Below are positions 4,721-23,624 of a DNA stretch of 33,532 nt, piece by piece. The stretch's first letter is position 1. Each line of letters starts with the position of its first letter. A model generated the notes under the pieces. The model was not told the origin of the DNA. It did no database searches and was given only the letters and a program-made list of their open reading frames with translations. Made by a program: the position numbers and the translations under genes. Source of the stretch: Saprospiraceae bacterium (lineage in GTDB: Bacteria > Bacteroidota > Bacteroidia > Chitinophagales > Saprospiraceae); the NCBI GenBank assembly GCA_022763215.1, contig JALEHC010000336.1:1-33532 (forward strand). Reading direction: 5' to 3'.

Positions 4721-5887
4721 TTAGGCGTTTCCGCCAAAAAATTCACTTAATGTAAGCCCAAAAATAAGCACAGATATGGTAATTCCGAACATAAAGATGG
4801 TATAACACAATCGGAGCAAGCGGTATTTCTCGCCCAGGGCACTGCCCAAATAGAATAAATCACGCATAATGGAGGCTTCCAGATGCTCTTCGTCTTCGAT
4901 CACTTTTTTCATGCCCTGTTCGTAAGTCGGGTAATTCATTTTATAAAAATTACCGAAGAAAAAGAGGTTGGAGCGCTTTTGTGTAATCAAATCCTCAGAA
5001 GTAAAACCCGTCATTTTGATAGGCCGAGTAGCCATAGTTGCGAAGATCATTGATGTCAGGCACGTCAAAAACAAAACGCCGATCGGGTAAATTAAAGTAG
5101 GTCGATCGCCTACAAAAGTGGCAGCCAGCGGCATGGCGATGGTGATAATTAGAGCATTGACACTTAGCATGATGTTGGCTTTATTATCAGCCAGATTGGT
5201 CAGGTCAAGGTGATTACGCAAAGCCGTTTTAAACATCATTTGCGCACCTTTATTGCTGGTAATGGTATCGCCAGCATCTTTAAGTTTTTTCTTTCTTTTA
5301 TCTTTTTTGACGATTTTTTTCATGGATTTCAGGTTCTCTTGGAGGGGTTCCTGAAAATCTTGTTGAGCTACTTCGGTATGGTATTCATGGTTTTTGATGA
5401 ACTGATAGTTCATTTTATGCCATTCTTCGTCGGTATATTCTTTGCCCAGAAAAACTTTCCACTCATGGCGCAGGCCAGCTAGTACTTCATTGTAGCGGCC
5501 ACTTCCAAGATTATTGAGGTCTGCATCCTGAATCACTTCTTCTAACTGATCCTGAGCGGTTTCGCCAACTTTAGTAGCACCGATACATGCTGTTACTTTT
5601 TGCAGCTTTGTTTCCGGATAGTCGTGCTGACGCAAAAACTTACGGGCAATTTCCTTGCCCACTTCTTCATGTCCGGTATATACTTTCGTAAAACCCGTAT
5701 CATGAAACAGAGCTGCCAATTGCAGGATCTCGGTTTCCTCTGCATTTAGCGAAAGCTTGGAAGCCAGTTTGAGGCAATTGTCACGCACTGTCAGCGTATG
5801 GGTCAGATTATGGTACCGATGATCTTTGGTGAGTTCATTGGTGAGTAGCTCTCGTACATAATCTTCGGCCTTTTGTACAATATCCAT
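4721..5887 (-). CDS. HD phosphohydrolase fused to Pycsar-effector-type TM domain
   Basis: A 388-residue two-domain protein. Residues 1-175 are an HD metal-dependent phosphohydrolase with the motif set complete: H26/H30 (HNLTH), H62-D63 (FHD) and D121 (QDADLNN). After a Lys-rich linker (188-203), residues 218-388 match the membrane domain that databases call Pycsar system effector/DUF5706 (PycTM). This part has the signature ADNKANIMLSVNALI, two TM segments around 241-286 and a final TM at 361-381. PycTM domains in Pycsar phage defence respond to cCMP/cUMP made by a PycC cyclase and damage the membrane. No nucleotidyl cyclase is present in this window. The HD domain could hydrolyse a nucleotide or phosphorylated signal, but its substrate is unknown. 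It is the first gene of the unit that continues into two glycosyltransferases. A housekeeping role rather than defence is possible. Confidence 0.85.
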   Translation of the reverse strand: MDIVQKAEDYVRELLTNELTKDHRYHNLTHTLTVRDNCLKLASKLSLNAEETEILQLAALFHDTGFTKVYTGHEEVGKEIARKFLRQHDYPETKLQKVTACIGATKVGETAQDQLEEVIQDADLNNLGSGRYNEVLAGLRHEWKVFLGKEYTDEEWHKMNYQFIKNHEYHTEVAQQDFQEPLQENLKSMKKIVKKDKRKKKLKDAGDTITSNKGAQMMFKTALRNHLDLTNLADNKANIMLSVNALIITIAMPLAATFVGDRPTLIYPIGVLFLTCLTSMIFATMATRPIKMTGFTSEDLITQKRSNLFFFGNFYKMNYPTYEQGMKKVIEDEEHLEASIMRDLFYLGSALGEKYRLLRLCYTIFMFGITISVLIFGLTLSEFFGGNA

Positions 5888-9480: not shown

Positions 9481-9580
9481 TCAAAAAGTAAATAGCCTAC
9501 GCATGTAAATGGTTGATTTTTTATACTTGGTATACTCCCGTAATTCTAGCCAAGTTTGGCCCGGTATTGAGCAAGAGCAT

Positions 9581-9600
9581 TGTATTTACCGAAAGGTAAA
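9581..9600. repeat. Second copy of the 20-nt hairpin repeat
   Basis: TGTATTTACCGAAAGGTAAA is identical over 20 nt to 2087-2106. The last 16 nt fold as a 6-bp stem with a GAAA loop. Here it lies in a divergent promoter region, about 145 bp upstream of the protease start and 185 bp upstream of the adhesin start. A plain terminator role therefore does not explain it. Flanks outside the 20 nt differ between the copies. Confidence 0.75.
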
Positions 9601-9699
9601 GCTGGAATGGAAAGACCTCCAAACATTGAAATTATATTTGGGAATAAAATTAACCTATCAAACGTCATTCAGTTGAAATTGAAAATGTATATTTAAAGC

Positions 9700-9725
9700 C
9701 CAAATATATTATTAGCTATATTTGG
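9700..9725. promoter_or_regulatory. Inverted pair of -7 boxes upstream of adhesin gene
   Basis: CCAAATATA (9700-9708) and TATATTTGG (9717-9725) form a perfect 9-bp inverted repeat with an 8-bp spacer. Each arm contains TATATTTG, the TAnnTTTG -7 consensus, one for each strand. The rightward copy would start adhesin transcription near 9731, about 55 nt before the ATG at 9786. Another rightward TATATTTG lies at 9633-9640. The symmetry could also be a regulator-binding palindrome. Confidence 0.5.
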
Positions 9726-9785
9726 AACGATCGATCGCAATACTAGCTAAAAGTAGTATTGGAAAGAATACAATTCCTCTCATTT

Positions 9786-12700
9786 ATGAATTACTTTAGA
9801 GACCTAAGCCTTACTTGTGTTTTCTTATTTCTATTTATTTCTCCTATCATTAGCCAAAATGGTAATTTTTATTTCGTAACCGCTTGTGATAAAGGTGATG
9901 GAACCGCGGAGTTCAATTTTGACATTATAAAAATTAATATCCTTCAACAGAATAATGCCTCTTCAGGGAATATTGAATTATATTTTGATCCAGGGTTGAG
10001 CAATTTGCTTCCGAACCAAAGTATGCTGGTTTCACAAGACAGTACAATTTATGCACAAATTGAAGCAGATCAATTTCCAGGAGGTTCAGAAGCCATTCCG
10101 ATTGATTTGTTCGTATTGCCGCTACCAGTACCTGAAATAATTGGTGATTTACAAATTTGTGTAGGGGAATCCACGACCCTAGAAGGTACGGGGGGCGAAA
10201 CTTACGAATGGGTAATATCTACGCTGAACGATTCTATGATGATAGAAGGGAATACAGTAACCCTTAATGAAACCAATCAGGGGCCACTGTCACTAACTGT
10301 TACGGATATCGACGGATGTATGGCAACAATAAGAGATACCTTAGAGTTTTCAAACTTACTGGAAACCGAGTGTTTTGTATCTGGCTTGGCCTCCTCTCCT
10401 ACTGTCCCAGATGGAACAGTAGCAGTAGACATTGACAATGGCCGTCCAACCTTTACCCTTTATGTTGTAAATGAAGATAATGAGGAAGTTATTACACCTG
10501 TGAGTGGTTTTGAAGGTGGAATTTTTGATGTTCCAGACATTCCTATCGGTAATCACCTCTTGATTATTGAGGATGCTTTTAATTGTTTTGACACCTGTGC
10601 ATTTGAGATGCAAGTTTGCGATTTTAGTATTGACGAAGATGCAAGTTTTGCGACCGATTTAAACTGTTTTGAAGACCAGTCGGGTGCGATTGACCTTGTT
10701 TTGAATGGCGGAGTTGGTCCTTATACTTTTCTGTCAGATCAAGTGGACATTGATAATACAACGAATAGTGCCAACAATTTGCCGGCAGGCACTTATGAGA
10801 TTGTTGTAGAAGATGGTTTGAGGTGTAAAGACACTATTTCATTTACTATCAATCAGCCGGAACTACTACAACTATTTTGCACGAGTATTGACGCTATCAA
10901 TGAAGGTGCTAGCAATGGCATGATTCAATTAGACTTTGAAGGCGGTACGCCGCCCTATTCCGTATCATGGTCAGGAACCATGAGTGGGATGGAGTCTGAA
11001 ATCGCTGCGGATACGTTTACAATAGTTGGTTTGCTGGTAGGAGATTATACCATTGAATTGACAGATGCAAATGGCTGCACGGAGACTTGTACAAATACAA
11101 TTTCGGGTCAACCTTGTACCTTGGATGTAGATTATGCAGTTACAAATATCAATTGTGCCTCTGAAGCACAAGGAATCATTGAATTAATGGTTGTAGGAGG
11201 AGTTCCTCCTTATCAGTACAATTGGAATATTGATTCATTGAATAGCGAACCAATCGTAGACAGCTTATTAGCTGGAATTTATCAGGTAACTGTAACAGAT
11301 GCAATTGAATGCGCTGTGGCATTGGAAATTGAAATAACAGAGCCTGAAATTCTATCAATAATCAATTGTTCGGAAGTAACGCCTACCACTCAGATTGGAG
11401 GAAGTGACGGCACAACTACAGTTACAATTAGTGGTGGTGTGGGGCCTTACAGTTATACGTTTGATGGCGCGTCTAATGGTAGCCAAGAAGGTATAACAGA
11501 CACTGAAGTCTTAATAGAAAACCTACCAATGGGGGATTATACCCTGATTGTTAGCGATATATTCAATTGCACTGCCGTCTGTAATTTCACCATTTTAGAG
11601 CCAGATTGCAGTAATTTGGGATTGGCATTGACAGCGACAAATGTTAGCTGTTTTGGAGGTACGGACGGTAGCATTACACCAACGATTACCAATGGAACAC
11701 CTCCGTTTACTATTGAGATCAATAGTACAGAAGGCTATAATGATCTTATACCAAGTATAAATTTGAACACATTTGATATTACTGATTTGCCAGCAGGCAA
11801 CTATCTTATAGAAATCACCGATACCAGACTATGTTCTGTTACAGAAGCTATTGAAATCTTCGAGCCAGAGCCTATTGAGTTAGATTGCAGCAATACGACT
11901 GATGTAAGTGTTGTTGGAACCAATACCGGATCGGCAATAATCACTTTTACGGGTGGAAATCCGGGGCTTTATGCGATTAGGCTTGATTCTCTTGGAACTA
12001 TATTAATGGAAGGCACAACAAATGATGATAGCTTCCAATTTACAGAACTTTATGCAGGAACTTATTCCGTCACGGTAATAGACCAATTGGGCTGCAATCA
12101 GAGTTGCTCAATTGTCATTAATGCTCCCGATTGTGATGATTTTAGTGTTCAATTGGAGGCCACCAATGTTAGCTGTAATGGCGAAAATGACGGAAGCATC
12201 AATGCAGTGGTTATCGATGGTGTTTTGCCCTTGCAAGACGTTAGTTGGAGCAATGGCGCAGATGAATTGAGCCTGGAGAATCTTACGCCTGGGGATTATA
12301 CCCTTACGGTGACAGATGCACGCGGATGCTCAGATGCCATGACTGAAACCATTTCGGAGCCGGCGGAAATTGTACTTACATGTGATACATTTGGCGTAAG
12401 CCAGGTAGGAGGCAACGATGGTATGATACAAATTACCTTCCCGGGTGGAAACCCAGGTGTAGACTCTATCTTTTTGGACTCCATGGGTATTAATTTGGAT
12501 CAAGGTACCACGGGAAATAATAGTTTTCAGTTCGATGGCTTATTTGCAGGAACCTACACCGTAACGGTCATTGACCCCTTGGGGTGTACCCAAAATTGTA
12601 TTTCTGTAATTAGTGAACCAGCATGTGATGATTTTAGTGTTCAGTTGGAGGCCACCAATGTTAGCTGTAATGGCGAAAATGACGGAAGCATCAATGCAGT

Positions 12701-14916: not shown

Positions 14917-15987
14917 ATGCATAATCAATACATCAATGTTTTATTTTTAATCTTATTAGCAAGTTTTTATGCTAAGAGCCAATCGTTTGTTACAAATGTT
15001 TCAAATTATAATCATATTGGCATGATTAATCCAGCTTTTTTCGATACTTATTACATAATTAATGGAGTTGAAAATGATAAAAGACATACCATAAATTTCT
15101 ACCATAGGCACCAACAATTTAAAGGATATGAAGGCCTACCTCAAGATGTCGGGATAAATTATCAAGGAACTTATAATTCTAAATATCTATTTGGAGGAGG
15201 AATTTATGGTCAAAAGTTAGGTGCACTTAACACCACAAAATTTAATATAAAGTTTGCATTATTAGTTTTAGGAGGAGCTAATGATAACCGAACTAACCAT
15301 TCGGATAGTAGGATCTTTATTGGCATTGGAATAGATGGGGGGGAATCTTACATTCAAAAAAATATTCTTACCATAATTGAAAAAGATGATAGGATTTTTA
15401 GCGATTTTAACTTCACAAAAAACTTTTACTGGATGCCCAAATTAGGTGTAATGGGCAGAATCTTTTTGGGGAGTGATAATTATTTTATTTTCGGAACTGC
15501 TTTTTCTGGCAGATTTGAAAAACTTAGTATCAATACACCTTTCGAGAAAACTGAAAGAATTAATCTGAATACTTCTTTTTTGATCAAAACAAGTAAAGGT
15601 GATTCTAATTCAACAACAAAAAGCTTAAACTTTTTAGAAATAGCCTTGTTCAATGAAACTTTCACTTCGATTTTTACTAAAAAAAGAAATATTTTAGTAA
15701 GTCGTTTCGATATTTTGTCACGTTTTTACTTAAAATTTGGTTCAGATAGTAATATTAGTAACTGGAATCTACAAAACGATTACCTTTCAATAGGATTGGG
15801 AGTTAAAAACATGAATTTCAATCCCCATTTGACGGGAAATATATTCTTCGAAACGAGTTATTTCTTTTATAATTTTTTGCCTAACTGTGATTTTGGAGTT
15901 AATTTTAGTTACCAAACTAGAAAAAATAAATTTGAAGGTCTACAAAGCATGAGTGCATACGCGACTAGGATAACCTTTGTCTTTTAA
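14917..15987 (+). CDS. PorP/SprF-family outer membrane protein
   Basis: A 356-residue protein with signal peptide (MHNQYINVLFLILLASFYAKSQ) and the N-terminal NPAF motif (residues 38-41) typical of the PorP/SprF family, outer-membrane beta-barrel-like proteins of the type IX secretion/gliding machinery. The alternating hydrophobic/polar pattern and the C-terminal aromatic residue (TFVF) fit an outer-membrane barrel. In other Bacteroidota, a SprF-type gene directly follows a SprB-type adhesin and is needed for its secretion or surface attachment; the 7-bp gap here matches that pairing. Its DNA is noticeably more AT-rich than the adhesin gene. The last 23 bp overlap the 3' end of the convergent TSP3 gene. 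The family call is by motif and context because the overall sequence is divergent. Confidence 0.8.
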   Translation: MHNQYINVLFLILLASFYAKSQSFVTNVSNYNHIGMINPAFFDTYYIINGVENDKRHTINFYHRHQQFKGYEGLPQDVGINYQGTYNSKYLFGGGIYGQKLGALNTTKFNIKFALLVLGGANDNRTNHSDSRIFIGIGIDGGESYIQKNILTIIEKDDRIFSDFNFTKNFYWMPKLGVMGRIFLGSDNYFIFGTAFSGRFEKLSINTPFEKTERINLNTSFLIKTSKGDSNSTTKSLNFLEIALFNETFTSIFTKKRNILVSRFDILSRFYLKFGSDSNISNWNLQNDYLSIGLGVKNMNFNPHLTGNIFFETSYFFYNFLPNCDFGVNFSYQTRKNKFEGLQSMSAYATRITFVF

Positions 15988-17839
15988 AGATATATAAATA
16001 GCCTTTGGTTCCTACAAATAATAGCTCTCCATTTTTATTGAATATTAAATGTGTTGGATAAATATCCTTAGGAAATGACGGGAAGTAAGCCTTCATATTT
16101 AACCACTTTTCAGTTCTAAAGTTTATTTTTGGGCTTTTTCTTTTCCAGATTTCAATTCTCCCGGCTCCGGACATTTCTGCAAATACAACATATCGATTAT
16201 CAGCACTGAAAGCATAGTTTATTAAACTTTTTTGGTAGCCGCTATATTTAAAATATATGGTATCAACTTGCAATGTATTTGACGTTGGCCAATTTCCTCT
16301 AAGTATAGCTTTATCTTTTTGTACTAAAATAACTGGCTTCTTATCTTCACCTTCCAATAACTTTTGTTTTTGCTCAAAATGAGGAACTTGCTTTGGTTCG
16401 TATATTTTCATTTCTTTATCTCTGAAAGCCTCAACTTTTGTCATAAACTTATTTCCGTTACTTTCTTCCGAGTATATTTTTAAAGTATTTTTACTAGATT
16501 GGCTATCAACAGAAATAATTTGCCCAATTTTTTTTCTATTGTTTGACTCAAATGCTGTTCGAATACCTTTCTCGTTGTCAAGTGATACGACATATAAATA
16601 ACCTTGTTGAGATCCAACAACTAATAACTCCTCATCCCAAACTAACTTCATATAGTTAATAGGGTCACTTCTTGGTACTATTTGTTCAAGGTGTTTAAAT
16701 GAAAAAAACTCTTGCGGACACCCATCAGAACCTGTACCAGCTACTGTTGGGCACTCATCATCAAAATCCCAAACTCCATCTCCATCTGCATCAGGACACC
16801 CATTATTTTCTAATTCCCCCACATGGCAAGGGCATAAATCAACTAGGTCATTTAATGAATCTCTATCAATATTTGGGCAGCCATTTAAATTTACATTAAC
16901 CGAGTCGATCTCACCGTAAGTGTCTGGACATTTATCTAAATAATCAGGCACATTATCTCTATCAGTGTCTGGGCATCCGTAAAATGAATCTTGATAATAC
17001 CCTGTTATTTTATCTCCGGCTATTCCTATGCAAGAATTAGACTCATCTTTATCCGCAATTCCGTCTCCATCCTGGTCTGGACAACCGTTAGCTAGACCAG
17101 GTATAAACGGACATTGATCGTCCCAAGTAGATAAATTTTCCCATTTACCGTTACCATTATGAAATCCGTCTCCATCCCAGTCTAAACATCCTTTCACGAC
17201 TCCATTTGTGAAGGGACACAGATCGGGATTAAAATCATCGTTTGTTAGAAAACCGTCGTTATCTGGATCATCTTCATTAATTATTTTCATAGAAAATATC
17301 CTACTTTTCAACCTTCCTAATTGCCAATAACAAAAAAAGTTAATTCTCATTGGGATTGAAAAGGCGATCTTTTGTCCCTTGCACTTCTCAAAATTTATAT
17401 TGATGATTGTTGTGGCATTAGCATCAACCCTACTTAAACGAGTTCTATTTTTATCGCTAAGATTAACTTCAGGGAAAAATCCTATTTTTGTAAAGATTGC
17501 TTTTGAAAGATCGATTGAAAAAGAAGATTGTGGGTATTTATTAACATTATTTATGAATTTCAAAAGCTTTATTGAATTAGTGGTTGCCTTCCCTTTTTTC
17601 TCTGCATATCTGAAAATAAGTCCAATTGTAGCATTTTCATTTATGAATACCTTATCTAGGTATTCATTTTTCAAATATTTATAATCTTCATCTGAAATAA
17701 TATTTGATTCGATCACATTATTTGTAATGATTAAAAAATCCTCAATATTTTTTAACCAAGGAGCACTATTGCTATTTTGGCTATTAGACCTAGAAACACT
17801 TAGAAAAAAAATAAAAATGATAAGGAATCTAAAAATCAT
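15965..17839 (-). CDS. Exported TSP3-repeat / beta-propeller-like protein
   Basis: A 624-residue protein with signal peptide (residues 1-20). Residues 25-185 are not recognised. Residues 191-375 hold about six thrombospondin type 3-like calcium-binding repeats: DPDNDG, DWDGDG, DQDGDG, DTDRDN, NIDRDS and DADGDG, most followed by D.CP. Residues about 380-624 show spaced blade-like motifs (LLVVGSQQGYLYVVSLD, YVVFAEMSGAGRIEIWKRK, LLFVGTKGYLYIFKR), suggesting a WD40/beta-propeller. There is no CHU_C or obvious sorting tail. It is the last gene of a three-gene AT-rich operon, and its start overlaps the upstream stop by 4 bp, so translation is likely coupled. It probably resides in the periplasm or at the outer membrane. 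Biochemical function is unknown. Confidence 0.75.
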   Translation of the reverse strand: MIFRFLIIFIFFLSVSRSNSQNSNSAPWLKNIEDFLIITNNVIESNIISDEDYKYLKNEYLDKVFINENATIGLIFRYAEKKGKATTNSIKLLKFINNVNKYPQSSFSIDLSKAIFTKIGFFPEVNLSDKNRTRLSRVDANATTIININFEKCKGQKIAFSIPMRINFFCYWQLGRLKSRIFSMKIINEDDPDNDGFLTNDDFNPDLCPFTNGVVKGCLDWDGDGFHNGNGKWENLSTWDDQCPFIPGLANGCPDQDGDGIADKDESNSCIGIAGDKITGYYQDSFYGCPDTDRDNVPDYLDKCPDTYGEIDSVNVNLNGCPNIDRDSLNDLVDLCPCHVGELENNGCPDADGDGVWDFDDECPTVAGTGSDGCPQEFFSFKHLEQIVPRSDPINYMKLVWDEELLVVGSQQGYLYVVSLDNEKGIRTAFESNNRKKIGQIISVDSQSSKNTLKIYSEESNGNKFMTKVEAFRDKEMKIYEPKQVPHFEQKQKLLEGEDKKPVILVQKDKAILRGNWPTSNTLQVDTIYFKYSGYQKSLINYAFSADNRYVVFAEMSGAGRIEIWKRKSPKINFRTEKWLNMKAYFPSFPKDIYPTHLIFNKNGELLFVGTKGYLYIFKRQRLS

Positions 17840-18474
17840 TGTCTTTTTGTTTCAACTACTGATATATTTCTAAATTTAACTTCCCATACACCTCTACTTT
17901 GCCACGCAAACACCTCAATATTCTTAATAGTTATATCTTTGTATTCTCCTGACATGCCAACTCCTAAAAATGTCTGTTCATACTGACATATAGCCTTAAG
18001 ATAATCAAACTCATCTCTTCCTAATTCTTTCTCTACGATTCTTCTCCCGTAATCATCAAGGGAGAGAACCCCTAGGTTTTTAAGGTTTAACTTTATTAAA
18101 CCATATTTTTTTTCAAGTCTTTCATATCTATCAAAATACTCTCTAATTGTTCCATTAAATACAATAACATTATTTGCATTCGATACTTCAATCTTAGACC
18201 CAACAAAAAACATCCCTGTTGTTAAATCTTCTAAATCCATTCTTCTTTCTGTTCGCTTGGTTCTTGTACCAATATCTTCAAGATTAATCAAAAATTCCTC
18301 GACATTATAATTAATTAAATCTTCTAAATCTGGATCAATCCCCAAGTTTTCCGTAATAACATATAGATTAAGATGATCTTTATGATTATTTGATTCATTC
18401 TTAAGAACTTCATCAGCATCATTAAACTGACATATTAAAAAAGGAAACATTATTAAAATGTAGATCTCTTTCAT
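17836..18474 (-). CDS. Unrecognised small exported protein
   Basis: I do not recognise this 212-residue protein. The first 17 residues (MKEIYILIMFPFLICQF) are hydrophobic and could be a signal peptide or lipoprotein-like leader, with Cys at residue 15. The rest is rich in Asp/Glu/Lys, without Cys clusters or a known catalytic motif, and ends with beta-rich-looking sequence (GVWEVKFRNISVVET). Both ends overlap neighbours by 4 bp (17836-17839 and 18471-18474), the ATGA-type arrangement that indicates translational coupling in an operon. Products of such tightly coupled genes often work together, here probably with the 4-TM protein upstream and the TSP3 protein downstream. The coding sequence is strongly AT-rich. 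Confidence 0.7.
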   Translation of the reverse strand: MKEIYILIMFPFLICQFNDADEVLKNESNNHKDHLNLYVITENLGIDPDLEDLINYNVEEFLINLEDIGTRTKRTERRMDLEDLTTGMFFVGSKIEVSNANNVIVFNGTIREYFDRYERLEKKYGLIKLNLKNLGVLSLDDYGRRIVEKELGRDEFDYLKAICQYEQTFLGVGMSGEYKDITIKNIEVFAWQSRGVWEVKFRNISVVETKRQ

Positions 18475-19475
18475 ATTGAATAACTTAGGTTTGTGATTTT
18501 ACCACTAGTTGGTGAAATACTGTAATCAATAACTTTAACTCCTTTAAACTCACGGGAATTTAACAAAGTTAGAAACTGCATAGTTTCTCTAAATTTTATT
18601 TGCCTCTTCCTAAGATTTGGAAAATATTCAATGAATTCGCATTGCTCCTCAAAAAATCTCATTTGCTCAAGAAAAGATTGATTTTGTTTGTATTTGCTCT
18701 TTGCCAGTATATTTAAAGATATTTCTACCTCACTTTTTATCTCCATAAAAAAAGTCAAATCTTCATATTTACAGTATTCATTATTGTATCTTAAAGTCCT
18801 AATTTCTATAGAATCTGTGTAAATAGAATTTTCTAATCTATCTAAAAAAGATGATATTCTTTCTTCTTGTAAATTCTTTATTTTAATATCTCTTTTTAGT
18901 TTAAAGTTCCCTGAAACATTGATAAAAGAAGAATCAATTTGTTCCCTTAGCTTTTTATTACCTTTCGAGTTGGCTAATTCATTTAACTTTATTTGAAGTT
19001 CTGCTCTATCTAAAGGTTTAAATTGCTTATATATACCTATCGGTAAACAAGAAGCTATTAAGACAACCCCTGCTAAAAATAATACTATGAGTTCTGGTTT
19101 ATGAAGAAAATGATTTGGAAAATATTTCTCTTTGAAAAAGAATGTAAAAATTGAAATAAAAATTAGACTAAGTCCCAAGACAAGAAGTAATACTGACTTT
19201 ACACCTAAATCTAATTGATAAATAAACATGCATTCTTCCTTGGAGGCCTGATTAGTAGTATAAAGGACCATAATGCCTCCAATAGAAAGAATTCCACCAA
19301 TTAATACTCTTGTGTTTTTCGATGGTTCTTCGAATTTCACTCCCTTTCTAAAAGAATACCCTATGACTGGAAGCCCTAAAACTAGCATGCCTATACCTAT
19401 CAAGTAAGGTGAATATATCCAAACCAAATCTTCTAAAGCTGGAAAAACTTCCAAAATGTCTCTTAAATAATCCAA
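18471..19475 (-). CDS. Unrecognised four-TM membrane protein
   Basis: A 334-residue protein of unknown family. Four hydrophobic segments are visible in the N-terminal half (YLIGIGMLVLGLPVIGYSF; VLIGGILSIGGIMVLYT; SVLLLVLGLSLIFISIFTFFF; LIVLFLAGVVLIASCLPIGIY). A soluble C-terminal region (about residues 165-334), rich in Lys/Glu and probably helical then mixed, follows. The short tail ends in YSISPTSGKITNLSYSI. It is the first gene of the leftward AT-rich operon and overlaps the next start by 4 bp. The soluble part could face either the cytoplasm or the periplasm. No catalytic motif was found. It could anchor a complex with its two exported neighbours, but that is inference from gene order only. 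Confidence 0.7.
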   Translation of the reverse strand: MDYLRDILEVFPALEDLVWIYSPYLIGIGMLVLGLPVIGYSFRKGVKFEEPSKNTRVLIGGILSIGGIMVLYTTNQASKEECMFIYQLDLGVKSVLLLVLGLSLIFISIFTFFFKEKYFPNHFLHKPELIVLFLAGVVLIASCLPIGIYKQFKPLDRAELQIKLNELANSKGNKKLREQIDSSFINVSGNFKLKRDIKIKNLQEERISSFLDRLENSIYTDSIEIRTLRYNNEYCKYEDLTFFMEIKSEVEISLNILAKSKYKQNQSFLEQMRFFEEQCEFIEYFPNLRKRQIKFRETMQFLTLLNSREFKGVKVIDYSISPTSGKITNLSYSI

Positions 19476-19819
19476 TGTTTGAGGTATTTACGATTAAAAA
19501 CCAAATAATACTTCAATGCTCAAGGGATAGGAGATAATTCTATTAATTTTAATTTTTATAGGCAGAAATTATGCCTATCTTTTATTTAGCAAAATTCATT
19601 TCTGCTAAAATACAGAATTATCAGACTAAAGCACAAAACACATTGGTTAAATTAATATAAAAAAATAACGCACTTGTAAACCAGGCAAATAACTTTTGCC
19701 GTATCATCAAATAAAAATAGTATTTGTAAGTCCCCACCCCAACATTTCCACCAAAATCCCAAGCACATCTATACCATCTTTCTTAATATAGTGGTTATAG
19801 GATCAAAATAATTTCAACC
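19476..19819. other. AT-rich divergent intergenic region with nested hairpins
   Basis: About 340 bp between the divergent 4-TM gene and the thioredoxin-fusion gene. I see no gene. Two perfect small hairpins lie close together: ATAGGC/GCCTAT (19558-19578) and TTAGCA/TGCTAA (19586-19608). An alternative 8-bp pairing, GCAGAAAT (19562-19569) with ATTTCTGC (19598-19605), would exclude both. No perfect TAnnTTTG box was found for either gene. The last 90 bp before the thioredoxin gene are C-rich on the plus strand. Confidence 0.5.
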
Positions 19820-20839: not shown

Positions 20840-21021
20840 GGGGCGACCAACGTGTCCCCCCCAACTCGTCCAAAACCCCAAAACGAGCCCGCGAGTCAAA
20901 AAACGTCCCACCACAAGCGAGCCGGGCAACGCCCGACGAGCCCGGCGCAACGAAGTGAGCAGGGCTAGGGATGGCATCAGCCCGACCCCATAACCGCCAA
21001 AGGCGGTGGGGTAGCCCCCTA
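20837..21021. repeat. GC-rich structured element with terminal inverted repeats
   Basis: A 185-bp element bounded by TAGGGGGC (20837-20844) and its exact reverse complement GCCCCCTA (21014-21021); similarity extends as TAGGGGGCkACC. Inside are several hairpins: CGGGC-AAC-GCCCG (20923-20935), GGGCT/AGCCC (20962-20983), and ACCCC...ACCGCC-AAA-GGCGGT-GGGGT (20985-21012). It is much more GC-rich than its neighbours and lies exactly between convergent genes. The TAG of each repeat is the stop codon of the adjacent gene. It looks like a dispersed, MITE/REP-like intergenic repeat. No coding sequence is credible inside it. Confidence 0.75.
20985..21012. terminator. Strong two-part hairpin downstream of ligase gene
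   Basis: Inner stem ACCGCC/GGCGGT with AAA loop, outer stem ACCCC/GGGGT, and a three-base bulge on the left side. It starts 7 bp after the ligase stop in leftward transcription and could also act on rightward transcription from the thioredoxin gene. There is no U-tract, so Rho-independent termination is uncertain. It may simply be part of the repeat element. Confidence 0.4.
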
Positions 21022-22605
21022 AGCATTCAAAAACGCCTTCAAATCGGCCAATGTATTCGCCTCCTCTTTCGGTTTATCCTTTCGCCAACGATTAATCCGT
21101 GGAAAACGCAAAGCCACCCCCGATTTATGCCGATTAGAAGCCCGAATACCCTCAAATGCAATTTCAAAAACATGATGCGGAGTAACACTCCGAACCGGCC
21201 CAAAACGTTCGACCGTATGTTTGCGTACCCAAGCCGTAATTTCTCGAAATTCTTTGTCCGTCAAACCAGAATAAGCTTTCGTAAATGGAACCAACAAATC
21301 GCCATCCCAAACCGCAAAAGTGAAATCCGTATACAAATTCGCTCGTCGCCCATGGCCCCTTTGCGCATAAATCATTACCGCATCTATCATCATCGGATCA
21401 ATCTTCCATTTCCACCAATCTCCTCGCTTACGGCCCGATCGATACGGAGAGTCCTTTCGCTTCAGCATAATCCCCTCCGAATCATATTCTCGCGATTTAT
21501 CCCGCTCCTCGGCTAAAGCCTCCCAATTGTCGAATTGCAAACGCTCCGATAACATCAATACTTCCTCATTGCATTGCGCAACCGCGTATTCCAACAGCTT
21601 TCGCCGCTCTTCCATCGGCTTTTGCCGAATATCCTGCCCTTCCCATTCCAGCAAGTCATAAGCCATCAAAATAACCGGCGCTTTCTTCAGTATATTTTTG
21701 GTGATATTCTTTCGCCCAATCCGAGTCTGCAACAAATTAAAAGACAATGGACGTCCATCTTTGAATGGTAAAATCTCTCCATCTAGTACCGTCCCATTTG
21801 GTAACTTCTCAGCCAAAACTGCATATTCCGGAAATTTATCTGTGACCAATTCTTCACCCCTCGACCAAACAAATAATTCATCGCCCCGAACAATCAATTG
21901 CCCCCTGATTCCATCCCATTTTCGCTCCGCTTGCCATTCCTCAGGTGCCCCCAAATCCTCAGGCCCCTCGTCTAGTGCATACGCCAAGTAAAATGGATAT
22001 GGCTTCGACAAGTCTTCCATCGGATCAGAGGAAAGAATCAAATCATGGAAAGTAGTATCATCAGGCGTCCAATCTCCCATCAATCGGTGTGCCAACGTAT
22101 TTTCTTCAATGCCGGTATATTGGGCCAAAGCCCGTACCATTAGTTTTTGGGATACCCCCACTCGAAATCCACCCGTAATCAACTTGTTAAAAATGAAGCG
22201 TTCTGCATAATTGAGTTGTCGCCAAGCCCATTTTACCTTCTCTCGCTTTTCTTCTTCCTCCAGTTTACCCAACGACTTGATGAAATCAATCCAGTAAGTC
22301 AGCGATTGATCTTGTTCTTCAAAATCAGGTGGTAAAGTCAGTGCTATGGTCTCCGCCAAATCTCCCACCACATGATAACTTTCCTCAAAAAGCCACAATG
22401 GAATGCTGCCTTCTTCCGAAGCCCAATGCCGAAGTAAAGTGGTATTGACCGTTCGTTTGGGTCTACGATGCGATAATATGGCTACGGTCCACAACTTGTC
22501 TTGGTCATGCTCGCTTTCGCGAAAAAACTGAGCCAAGGCCTCCACTTTAGCATTCGTTTTTGTCGTCTGATCTAGTGCTGTAAATAGCTTGGCAAATTGC
22601 TTCAT
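21019..22605 (-). CDS. ATP-dependent DNA ligase (ligase-associated cluster type)
   Basis: A 528-residue ATP-dependent DNA ligase. The adenylation motif I is KWDGIRG with the nucleophile lysine at residue 229. Further motifs are visible: DGEILPF (motif III), ESEGIML-type DSEGIMLKRKDSPY (motif IV), and KRGDWWKWKIDP (motif V). The N-terminal ~200 residues form the all-alpha DNA-binding domain and the C-terminal part is the OB fold ending RFPRINRWRKDKP. This is the ligase found with the MBL-fold ligase-associated exonuclease, whose gene lies immediately upstream with a 4-bp overlap. Other genomes also carry a ligase-associated helicase and a phosphoesterase (pdeM) in this cluster; neither is here. 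The pair is thought to repair DNA ends. The stop codon TAG comes from the adjoining repeat. Confidence 0.95.
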   Translation of the reverse strand: MKQFAKLFTALDQTTKTNAKVEALAQFFRESEHDQDKLWTVAILSHRRPKRTVNTTLLRHWASEEGSIPLWLFEESYHVVGDLAETIALTLPPDFEEQDQSLTYWIDFIKSLGKLEEEEKREKVKWAWRQLNYAERFIFNKLITGGFRVGVSQKLMVRALAQYTGIEENTLAHRLMGDWTPDDTTFHDLILSSDPMEDLSKPYPFYLAYALDEGPEDLGAPEEWQAERKWDGIRGQLIVRGDELFVWSRGEELVTDKFPEYAVLAEKLPNGTVLDGEILPFKDGRPLSFNLLQTRIGRKNITKNILKKAPVILMAYDLLEWEGQDIRQKPMEERRKLLEYAVAQCNEEVLMLSERLQFDNWEALAEERDKSREYDSEGIMLKRKDSPYRSGRKRGDWWKWKIDPMMIDAVMIYAQRGHGRRANLYTDFTFAVWDGDLLVPFTKAYSGLTDKEFREITAWVRKHTVERFGPVRSVTPHHVFEIAFEGIRASNRHKSGVALRFPRINRWRKDKPKEEANTLADLKAFLNA

Positions 22606-23624
22606 TCTTCCTCGTTTGAATCGGTTTTGTCAGACATTTCCGTAAGCTCTCCTTCGTATTCGGTTTCGACAATCTGAGCATCGTAGCCTTCCTCGGCTAA
22701 CCATCGCCGGAAAATGTCTGTGTAACCATGCGTCACAAATATGCGTTCTGCACCGGAAGCTTCTATCGCCGTATTCAATCCTTCCCAGTCCACATGATCG
22801 GATAATACAAACCCGCGATCTGCTGCTCGCCGCCGCCGCGCTCCTCTCAGCATCATCCAACCCGATGCCACACCCAGCGAAGCTGATTTAAACTTTTTTA
22901 TCCAGGCTGATCCCATTGCTGATGGTGGACAAATCACCATATTTCCGATGTAATCTTTTTTGTTAAGCCCTTGATGTACTCTTATCGTATCCTGCAATTT
23001 GACGCCTTGTGATCGAATCACTTCATTGACATTCTCTACTGCTCCATGGGTGTATATTTGCCCAATCGAAGTATCCAAATGCTGGATAATTCGCTGTGCT
23101 TTTCCCAATGAATACCCCGATAATACACTCACTTTGCCTTCTTCCTTATTCTTTTGCCACCAGCTGTTGATGTCATCAAATACTTCTTGTTGGGGCTTCC
23201 ATTTATAAATAGGCAAACCAAATGTACATTCGGTAATAAAGCTATGACATTGCACAGGTTCGTATGCTTCCGCAAATCCGTCATCCTCGATTTTGTAATC
23301 TCCAGATACCACCCACACTTCACCTTTGTACTCAATTCTGATTTGGGCAGAACCTAATATATGTCCTGCCGGATGAAAGGAAAATTGTACACCATGTATC
23401 GACTTCTTTTCACCATAGTCAATCGTCTCCACATTAATATCGCCAAGCCGATACCGGATGACTGGCATGGCCGAGGTCGTACATAAATAATATTGATGCC
23501 CCCAACGACTATGATCTGCATGGCCATGCGTGATCAATGCTCTTTTGACCGGCCGCCACGGATCAATATACACATCCGCTTGTGGACAATAAATGCCTTC
23601 TTTCCGAAATTCGAGTAAACTCAT
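22602..23624 (-). CDS. Ligase-associated DNA exonuclease (MBL fold)
   Basis: A 340-residue metallo-beta-lactamase/beta-CASP-type protein of the ligase-associated DNA exonuclease family, related to SNM1/Pso2-like nucleases. The metal-binding signature HGHADH is at residues 33-38, GHILGSAQIRI about residue 90, a metal-binding SGDY about residue 110, and the late motif FVTHGYTDIF near residue 300. The length is normal. The start overlaps nothing upstream: 68 bp separate it from the NTF2-like gene. The last codons overlap the ligase start (ATGA, 22602-22605), so the two are translationally coupled. It probably processes DNA ends for the partner ligase. The acidic C-terminus (EMSDKTDSNEEE) is unremarkable. 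Confidence 0.93.
   Translation of the reverse strand: MSLLEFRKEGIYCPQADVYIDPWRPVKRALITHGHADHSRWGHQYYLCTTSAMPVIRYRLGDINVETIDYGEKKSIHGVQFSFHPAGHILGSAQIRIEYKGEVWVVSGDYKIEDDGFAEAYEPVQCHSFITECTFGLPIYKWKPQQEVFDDINSWWQKNKEEGKVSVLSGYSLGKAQRIIQHLDTSIGQIYTHGAVENVNEVIRSQGVKLQDTIRVHQGLNKKDYIGNMVICPPSAMGSAWIKKFKSASLGVASGWMMLRGARRRRAADRGFVLSDHVDWEGLNTAIEASGAERIFVTHGYTDIFRRWLAEEGYDAQIVETEYEGELTEMSDKTDSNEEE

Follow-up and report, generated by a model that had tools for sequence, protein, structure and literature searches.

Our analysis of a 33,532-nucleotide stretch of DNA from a Saprospiraceae bacterium (assembly GCA_022763215.1, contig JALEHC010000336.1, positions 1 to 33,532; hereafter the window) revealed an accessory operon of three minus-strand open reading frames (ORFs), P0003, P0002 and P0001, chained by two 4-bp ATGA overlaps. 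They encode a membrane protein, a small exported protein with a predicted NTF2 fold, and an exported protein with TSP3-type repeats. P0002 clearly belongs to a wider family of Bacteroidota, and the trio looks like a rapidly evolving branch of a broader group of exported operons in this phylum, one that is apparently undescribed. The reading that we prefer, with about an even chance of being right, is that the three products assemble into a ligand-binding complex that is anchored and either periplasmic or surface-directed, in which P0002 would be the central subunit and P0001 an exchangeable head. The coordinates, strand, sizes and both overlaps of the trio given in a preliminary description, made from the sequence without database searches, were confirmed on re-check (Table 1).

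The NTF2-like protein and its two partners

P0002 has no family match in Pfam, NCBIfam (E ≤ 0.1) or PADLOC (E ≤ 0.01). Members of the NTF2-like superfamily frequently diverge past the reach of profiles. An AlphaFold2 model built from a 12-row alignment (P0002 and 11 relatives) has a mean predicted local distance difference test score (pLDDT) of 76.7 and a predicted template modelling score (pTM) of 0.71, and displays the alpha+beta cone, curved sheet and N-terminal helices of the NTF2 fold. Foldseek listed NTF2-like proteins for this model, the best at E 5.9e-5, and VIA-align superimposed it on a designed NTF2 protein (Z 13.4, 108 residues, root-mean-square deviation 1.8) and on 3duk (Z 12.1). 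From the model together with these matches, P0002 is predicted to be an exported NTF2-fold protein. It shares the fold with SnoaL, ketosteroid isomerase, scytalone dehydratase, the CaMKII hub and TAP-p15 (Z 10-13.4), but stands apart from this superfamily in its export, its 4-15% identity in the listed alignments, its own Y-x-D-x-T-x-K motif and the missing Pfam match. Of 92 standalone P0002-like proteins, 90 carry the motif, which P0002 of the window has too; it occurs in strict form in 7 of 10 fusions and in none of 83 N-termini of the fourth-gene proteins described below; its alternating Y, D, T and K residues sit on a single strand of the model (residues 176-193).

At the head of the operon, P0003 has four hydrophobic segments by the Kyte-Doolittle scale (residues 17-35, 57-75, 95-113 and 130-148), as the preliminary description had it. 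This count hinges on the TTG start, because the next in-frame ATG falls within the first segment; an in-frame TAA stands immediately 5' of the TTG. The charge pattern of the loops is consistent with a periplasmic C-terminal tail. The earlier statement that P0003 and P0002 match no known family held in Pfam, NCBIfam and PADLOC: for P0003 the best Pfam match was weak (E 0.02), and no family was found in NCBIfam at E ≤ 0.1 or in PADLOC at E ≤ 0.01. A scan of genome contigs with P0003 matched 115 stretches and yielded no relative.

P0001 starts with a signal-like hydrophobic stretch, of which residues 1-19 were flagged by the hydropathy scan. Its TSP3 repeats, recognized from the outset, are supported by residues 286-377, which match the repeat region of 5wtl, an OmpA-family protein of solved structure (9.6e-25); unlike in 5wtl, no OmpA domain was reported by Pfam in P0001. 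The remaining C-terminal region, residues 378-624, is probably a WD40-like propeller, judging from its sequence. It gave 28 PDB matches at E ≤ 1 (best E 0.003), which we take to be WD40 propellers as far as their names are recognizable, and eight Pfam matches, the top four of which were propellers (best E 0.0015), all four below the cut-offs. The beta-propeller of the preliminary description is thus retained as a weak WD40-like resemblance, with the curated cut-off missed in Pfam.

The 165 nucleotides 5' of the P0003 start (19476-19640, minus strand) could be a structured leader of the trio: their branched fold has an energy of -36 kcal/mol (z -3.91), and none of 200 shuffles was as good. The whole window had no Rfam match at gathering scores, and two snoRNA matches of Rfam near the operon start look like chance.

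Recurrence of the trio and the wider operon family

Searching the 398 genomes of the window's family with a profile built from P0002 and two relatives gave matches in 15 of them, at 19 places, all of which were opened (one, G046, is cut off by a contig end, and another, L037, gave no ORF match). The order of membrane protein, P0002-like exported protein and exported TSP3 protein was found at five of the 19 places: in the window and in G191 (intergenic gaps of 9 and 10 bp), G235 (overlaps of 8 and 4 bp), G361 (two overlaps of 4 bp) and G186 (an overlap and a gap of 4 bp each, and about one TSP3 repeat). The same three kinds of gene thus stand in this order in four other genera, and the ATGA overlap between the counterparts of P0002 and P0001 recurs in some of them. 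Two further genomes, G210 and G287, have a P0002-like/TSP3 pair with an ATGA overlap; FHA and PP2C genes were found by Pfam at the former locus, and similar ORFs were recognized by eye at the latter. The G191 trio lies inside a run of MoxR-, VWA- and TPR/BatD-like ORFs (named by eye). The C-termini of the TSP3 proteins vary among the trios, those of G191, G235 and G361 resembling outer-membrane barrels by eye, with an empty Pfam result.

The distribution is patchy. P0002-like matches were found in just one of 14 genomes of the genus of G361, in 8 of 100 relatives of G191 and in 8 of 99 relatives of G235, most of them of other types. The right flank is syntenic in one congener of the window, where the thioredoxin-like, ligase and ligase-partner genes keep their order at 63-83% identity. 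No other window ORF was matched within the 19 kb read from this congener, and this span lacks both the trio and the adhesin pair adjoining it. The trio is therefore accessory. As a side observation, two homologous PKD proteins (34% over 221 residues), L005 7311-8030 (minus strand) and L031 6856-8418 (plus strand), each adjoin a trio; a relative is also present in L081, and none was seen in the window.

Elsewhere in Bacteroidota, relatives of P0002 occur in a core operon of four genes, encoding a lipoprotein or membrane protein that ends in a half-length version of the domain (half-domain), a P0002-like protein, an exported protein of about 277 residues, and a protein with a related N-terminal domain and leucine-rich repeats (LRRs). 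Profile searches found relatives in 19 of the 298 genomes of the order and in 11 of the 395 genomes of a phylum sample, the window's own genome included. GTDB contigs yielded 357 related stretches, the best 80 of which were kept; eight duplicates of other loci were removed and 72 loci were counted, with a bias arising from the iteration of the profiles on the same loci. By the criteria of this count, 68 of these 72 have a standalone P0002-like gene and the other four gave no such ORF. The half-length domain ends the upstream gene in 64 of 67 loci, the gene for the ~277-residue protein is next downstream in 61 of 67, and the second downstream gene has a domain-matching N-terminus in 58 of 65; the complete four-gene order was found in 54 of 68, and the downstream overlap is exactly 4 bp in 32 of 67. 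Thirteen of the 18 loci of the order have the standalone gene, accompanied by the half-domain in 8, the ~277-residue protein in 10, the fourth gene in 9 and all three in 7, while among the 19 loci of the family 11 have the standalone gene and none has the full four-gene order. In one further locus analysis, L037, L080, L088, L106, L159 and L161 gave no standalone P0002-like ORF.

The fourth-gene N-terminus is homologous to the P0002 family (hhalign 98.5%, E 2.4e-15, 141 columns). In ten fourth-gene proteins scanned, counts made with Pfam only gave LRRs in eight, TPR in one and nothing in one; TSP3 and FGE-type motifs were also met among the partner C-termini. The ~277-residue protein looks NTF2-like by eye and, with an hhalign result of at best 11.6% (E 0.0026), is not claimed as such. 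PDB searches with the core P0002-family and ~277-residue-family profiles gave no match at E ≤ 1. In the tree, the core P0002-like proteins of the other orders are slow-evolving, and the trio P0002s of G186, G235 and G191 group together (96/83).

In the other families of the order the cassette adjoins YukD, E2 and E1 genes, kinase, PP2C and FHA genes, Tubulin_2 genes or TIR genes. At L074, L076 and L077, YukD-, E2- and E1-type genes are divergent from the P0002-type operon (L074 by Pfam, the other two by eye), and the first gene of the L074 operon encodes ankyrin and SprB repeats. At L086 a Tubulin_2 protein (9483-12581, minus strand) stands directly 5' of the series of half-domain, P0002-like, ~277-residue and fourth genes. 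The window's own genome has a second P0002 relative (L006, contig C526), in which the domain is internal to a 1454-residue protein with transmembrane segments and an FGE-type C-terminus, and which adjoins a MoxR-type AAA gene (bpMoxR match below the cut-off).

The trio resembles the four-gene operon in that a P0002-like gene is flanked by one for a membrane protein or lipoprotein and one for an exported protein of variable C-terminus, and in the frequent ATGA overlaps; it differs in its anchor with several transmembrane segments and in the TSP3 repeats and propeller-like region that replace the LRRs. The NTF2-like, TSP3 and WD40-like parts are known. No paper describing the operon or the P0002 family was recognized among the open-licence papers searched, judged by titles and the beginnings of abstracts.

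Possible function and competing explanations

The preliminary description proposed a cell-envelope complex with a possible role linked to the neighbouring adhesin. The complex remains plausible. A trio of exported and membrane proteins recurs as a unit at five of 19 places; the adhesin-linked role is not supported, as discussed below. In the complex that we envisage, P0003 would serve as the inner-membrane anchor, its tail reaching into the periplasm; P0002 would bind both this tail and the N-terminus of P0001, and P0001 would provide a propeller-like head and a rod of TSP3 repeats. The whole might bind a ligand or act as a sensor, and its head (propeller, possible barrel, LRR, TPR or sulfatase-like) would be swapped between lineages. 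Where kinase/PP2C/FHA, YukD/E1/E2 or tubulin-like genes adjoin, the complex could form the outer part of a signalling system. A related domain in the partners would suit such an assembly. The N-termini of the seven trio and pair proteins, pooled, matched the fourth-gene profile at 86% (E 5e-6), with none of 40 column shuffles as high, and the TSP3 protein of the G235 trio joins the profile of the fourth-gene N-terminus at 5.4e-12; an NTF2-like relation of the P0001 N-terminal domain is suggested by this group of seven only. The five anchor tails scored 17.7% against the half-domain profile, again with none of 40 shuffles as high, and the best value for P0003 itself in a single profile search was E 0.12.

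Several observations weigh against the complex. When the G235 row was removed, the pooled N-termini fell to 12.4% (E 0.0024), and the anchor tails without the G361 row gave 1.1%. Taken from the window alone, the P0001 N-terminus and the P0003 tail had hhalign E-values of 0.086 and 0.45, and neither was significant against these profiles in a test with 2000 random decoys, of which 1540 to 1606 received a score: the N-terminus was equalled or exceeded by 29 of 1545 scored decoys and the tail by 94 of 1540. The ~277-residue third gene of the four-gene operon is missing from the window's trio. The P0002 relatives in the trios are only 21-27% identical to P0002, and the P0002s of the window and G361 are on long branches of the tree, placed without resolution. 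The signal-like hydrophobic start of P0002 was assigned by eye, and the hydropathy scan flags none there. Finally, the AlphaFold2 model of P0001 (seven-row alignment) has a mean pLDDT of 33.8 and supports no fold claim.

The main alternative, possible although rather unlikely in our estimate, makes P0002 a secreted enzyme or small-molecule binder of the NTF2-like type, to which P0003 and P0001 are accessory or loosely linked. Enzymes and pocket proteins (scytalone dehydratase, LinA, ketosteroid isomerase) are numerous among its NTF2-like matches, and the nearly invariant Y-D-T-K residues on one strand of the model are pocket-like. The fold cannot separate an enzyme from a partner-binding domain, because the match lists hold dehydratases as well as CaMKII hubs and TAP-p15, proteins of oligomerization or partner binding; the related domains in the operon partners favour an assembly over a lone enzyme. 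A part in a conflict or defence system, as a fast-evolving offshoot of nucleoside triphosphate-dependent conflict systems, is unlikely. It would fit the patchy distribution, the long branches of the family tree, the fused paralogue of the same genome with its MoxR-AAA neighbourhood and FGE-type C-terminus, and the TIR, E1/E2, kinase and tubulin-like neighbours seen elsewhere. An account of MoxR-vWA ternary and GTPase-centric conflict systems (PMC7159879, eLife 2020) mentions one class with NTF2 ligand-binding domains beyond transmembrane segments, and the P0002 paralogue likewise adjoins a MoxR-type AAA gene. In contrast to these systems, the trio contains no NTPase, vWA or effector gene; it also lacks a nuclease, its three proteins had no PADLOC match, and in other orders the core operon evolves slowly.

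Two further explanations concern the immediate surroundings. P0001 and a plus-strand ORF (14917-15987) overlap tail-to-tail by 23 bp, and the partner gene of this ORF encodes SprB repeats and a CHU_C domain. The arrangement and the SprB-type adhesin of the preliminary description stand, whereas the name SprF is unconfirmed, because the ORF had no Pfam match even at E ≤ 10; nor is it one of the genome's 11 PF11751 sites. That the trio supports or regulates this pair, which the arrangement, the SprB repeats next door and those in the upstream partner gene at L074 might suggest, is very unlikely. BLASTP of the SprF-like ORF against the pooled locus ORFs found only itself at E ≤ 1e-3 (the adhesin gene was not searched there), so that no relative of it was seen at other loci; the 11 PorP_SprF genes are on other contigs, none of which holds a P0002 relative, and the 19 kb of the congener lack both blocks. 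Dependence of the trio on SprB/SprF was rejected on these results. Least probable of all is the adjacency of three unrelated envelope genes by chance: no relative of the P0001 C-terminus was found in the 199 family genomes searched other than the window's own, and P0003 is unmatched by sequence in relatives, but the recurrence of this gene order in four other genera, with overlapping or closely spaced genes, contradicts it.

Extending the anchored-complex reading to the whole family gives a tentative and fairly doubtful picture of a modular trans-envelope receptor of Bacteroidota. It would combine an anchored half-domain with a free P0002-like subunit bearing the Y-x-D-x-T-x-K site and a partner with an exchangeable recognition head (LRR, TPR, sulfatase-like, or TSP3 with a possible barrel or propeller), all built from interacting NTF2-like domains, and would be plugged, depending on the lineage, into kinase/PP2C/FHA, YukD/E1/E2 conjugation, tubulin-like or MoxR-AAA inner modules. 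The window's trio, which has no kinase/PP2C/FHA, YukD/E1/E2 or tubulin-like gene alongside, might then be a stripped version devoid of an inner module. If this were true, a recurrent exported family without a curated model would be the common part of several envelope operons of Bacteroidota, and surface-type recognition domains would be tied to bacterial kinase, ubiquitin-like and tubulin-like modules. The defined motif and the presence of the four-gene operon in cultured genera, among them Roseivirga, Marinoscillum and Fulvivirga, make the function testable.

Feature coordinates and other genes of the window

Table 1. Positions of the trio and its parts in the window.
Feature	Position	Strand	Basis
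P0003, membrane protein, 334 aa, TTG start, four hydrophobic segments, ~186-aa C-terminal tail predicted periplasmic	18471..19475	-	Hydropathy, loop charges
P0003 membrane region, residues 17-148	19032..19427	-	Hydropathy
P0002, small exported protein, 212 aa	17836..18474	-	ORF and relatives
P0002 predicted NTF2-like domain, residues 43-212	17839..18348	-	AlphaFold2, Foldseek, VIA-align
Y-x-D-x-T-x-K motif of P0002, residues 178-184	17923..17943	-	Alignment of relatives
P0001, exported protein, 624 aa	15965..17839	-	ORF
P0001 N-terminal domain, residues ~20-190; NTF2-like relation suggested by group of seven only	17270..17782	-	hhalign
P0001 TSP3-type calcium-binding repeats, residues ~190-377	16709..17272	-	5wtl match 286-377; start of stretch by eye
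P0001 C-terminal region, residues 378-624, probable WD40-like propeller	15965..16708	-	Weak sequence matches
ATGA overlap P0003/P0002	18471..18474	-	
ATGA overlap P0002/P0001	17836..17839	-	

Two other loci of the window were observed. An ORF at 4721-5887 (minus strand) encodes a fusion of an HD domain with a PycTM (Pycsar effector) domain. An ATP-dependent DNA ligase gene and its partner gene (21019-22605 and 22602-23624, minus strand) overlap by 4 bp, and the order of this pair is kept in the congener at 82-83% identity.

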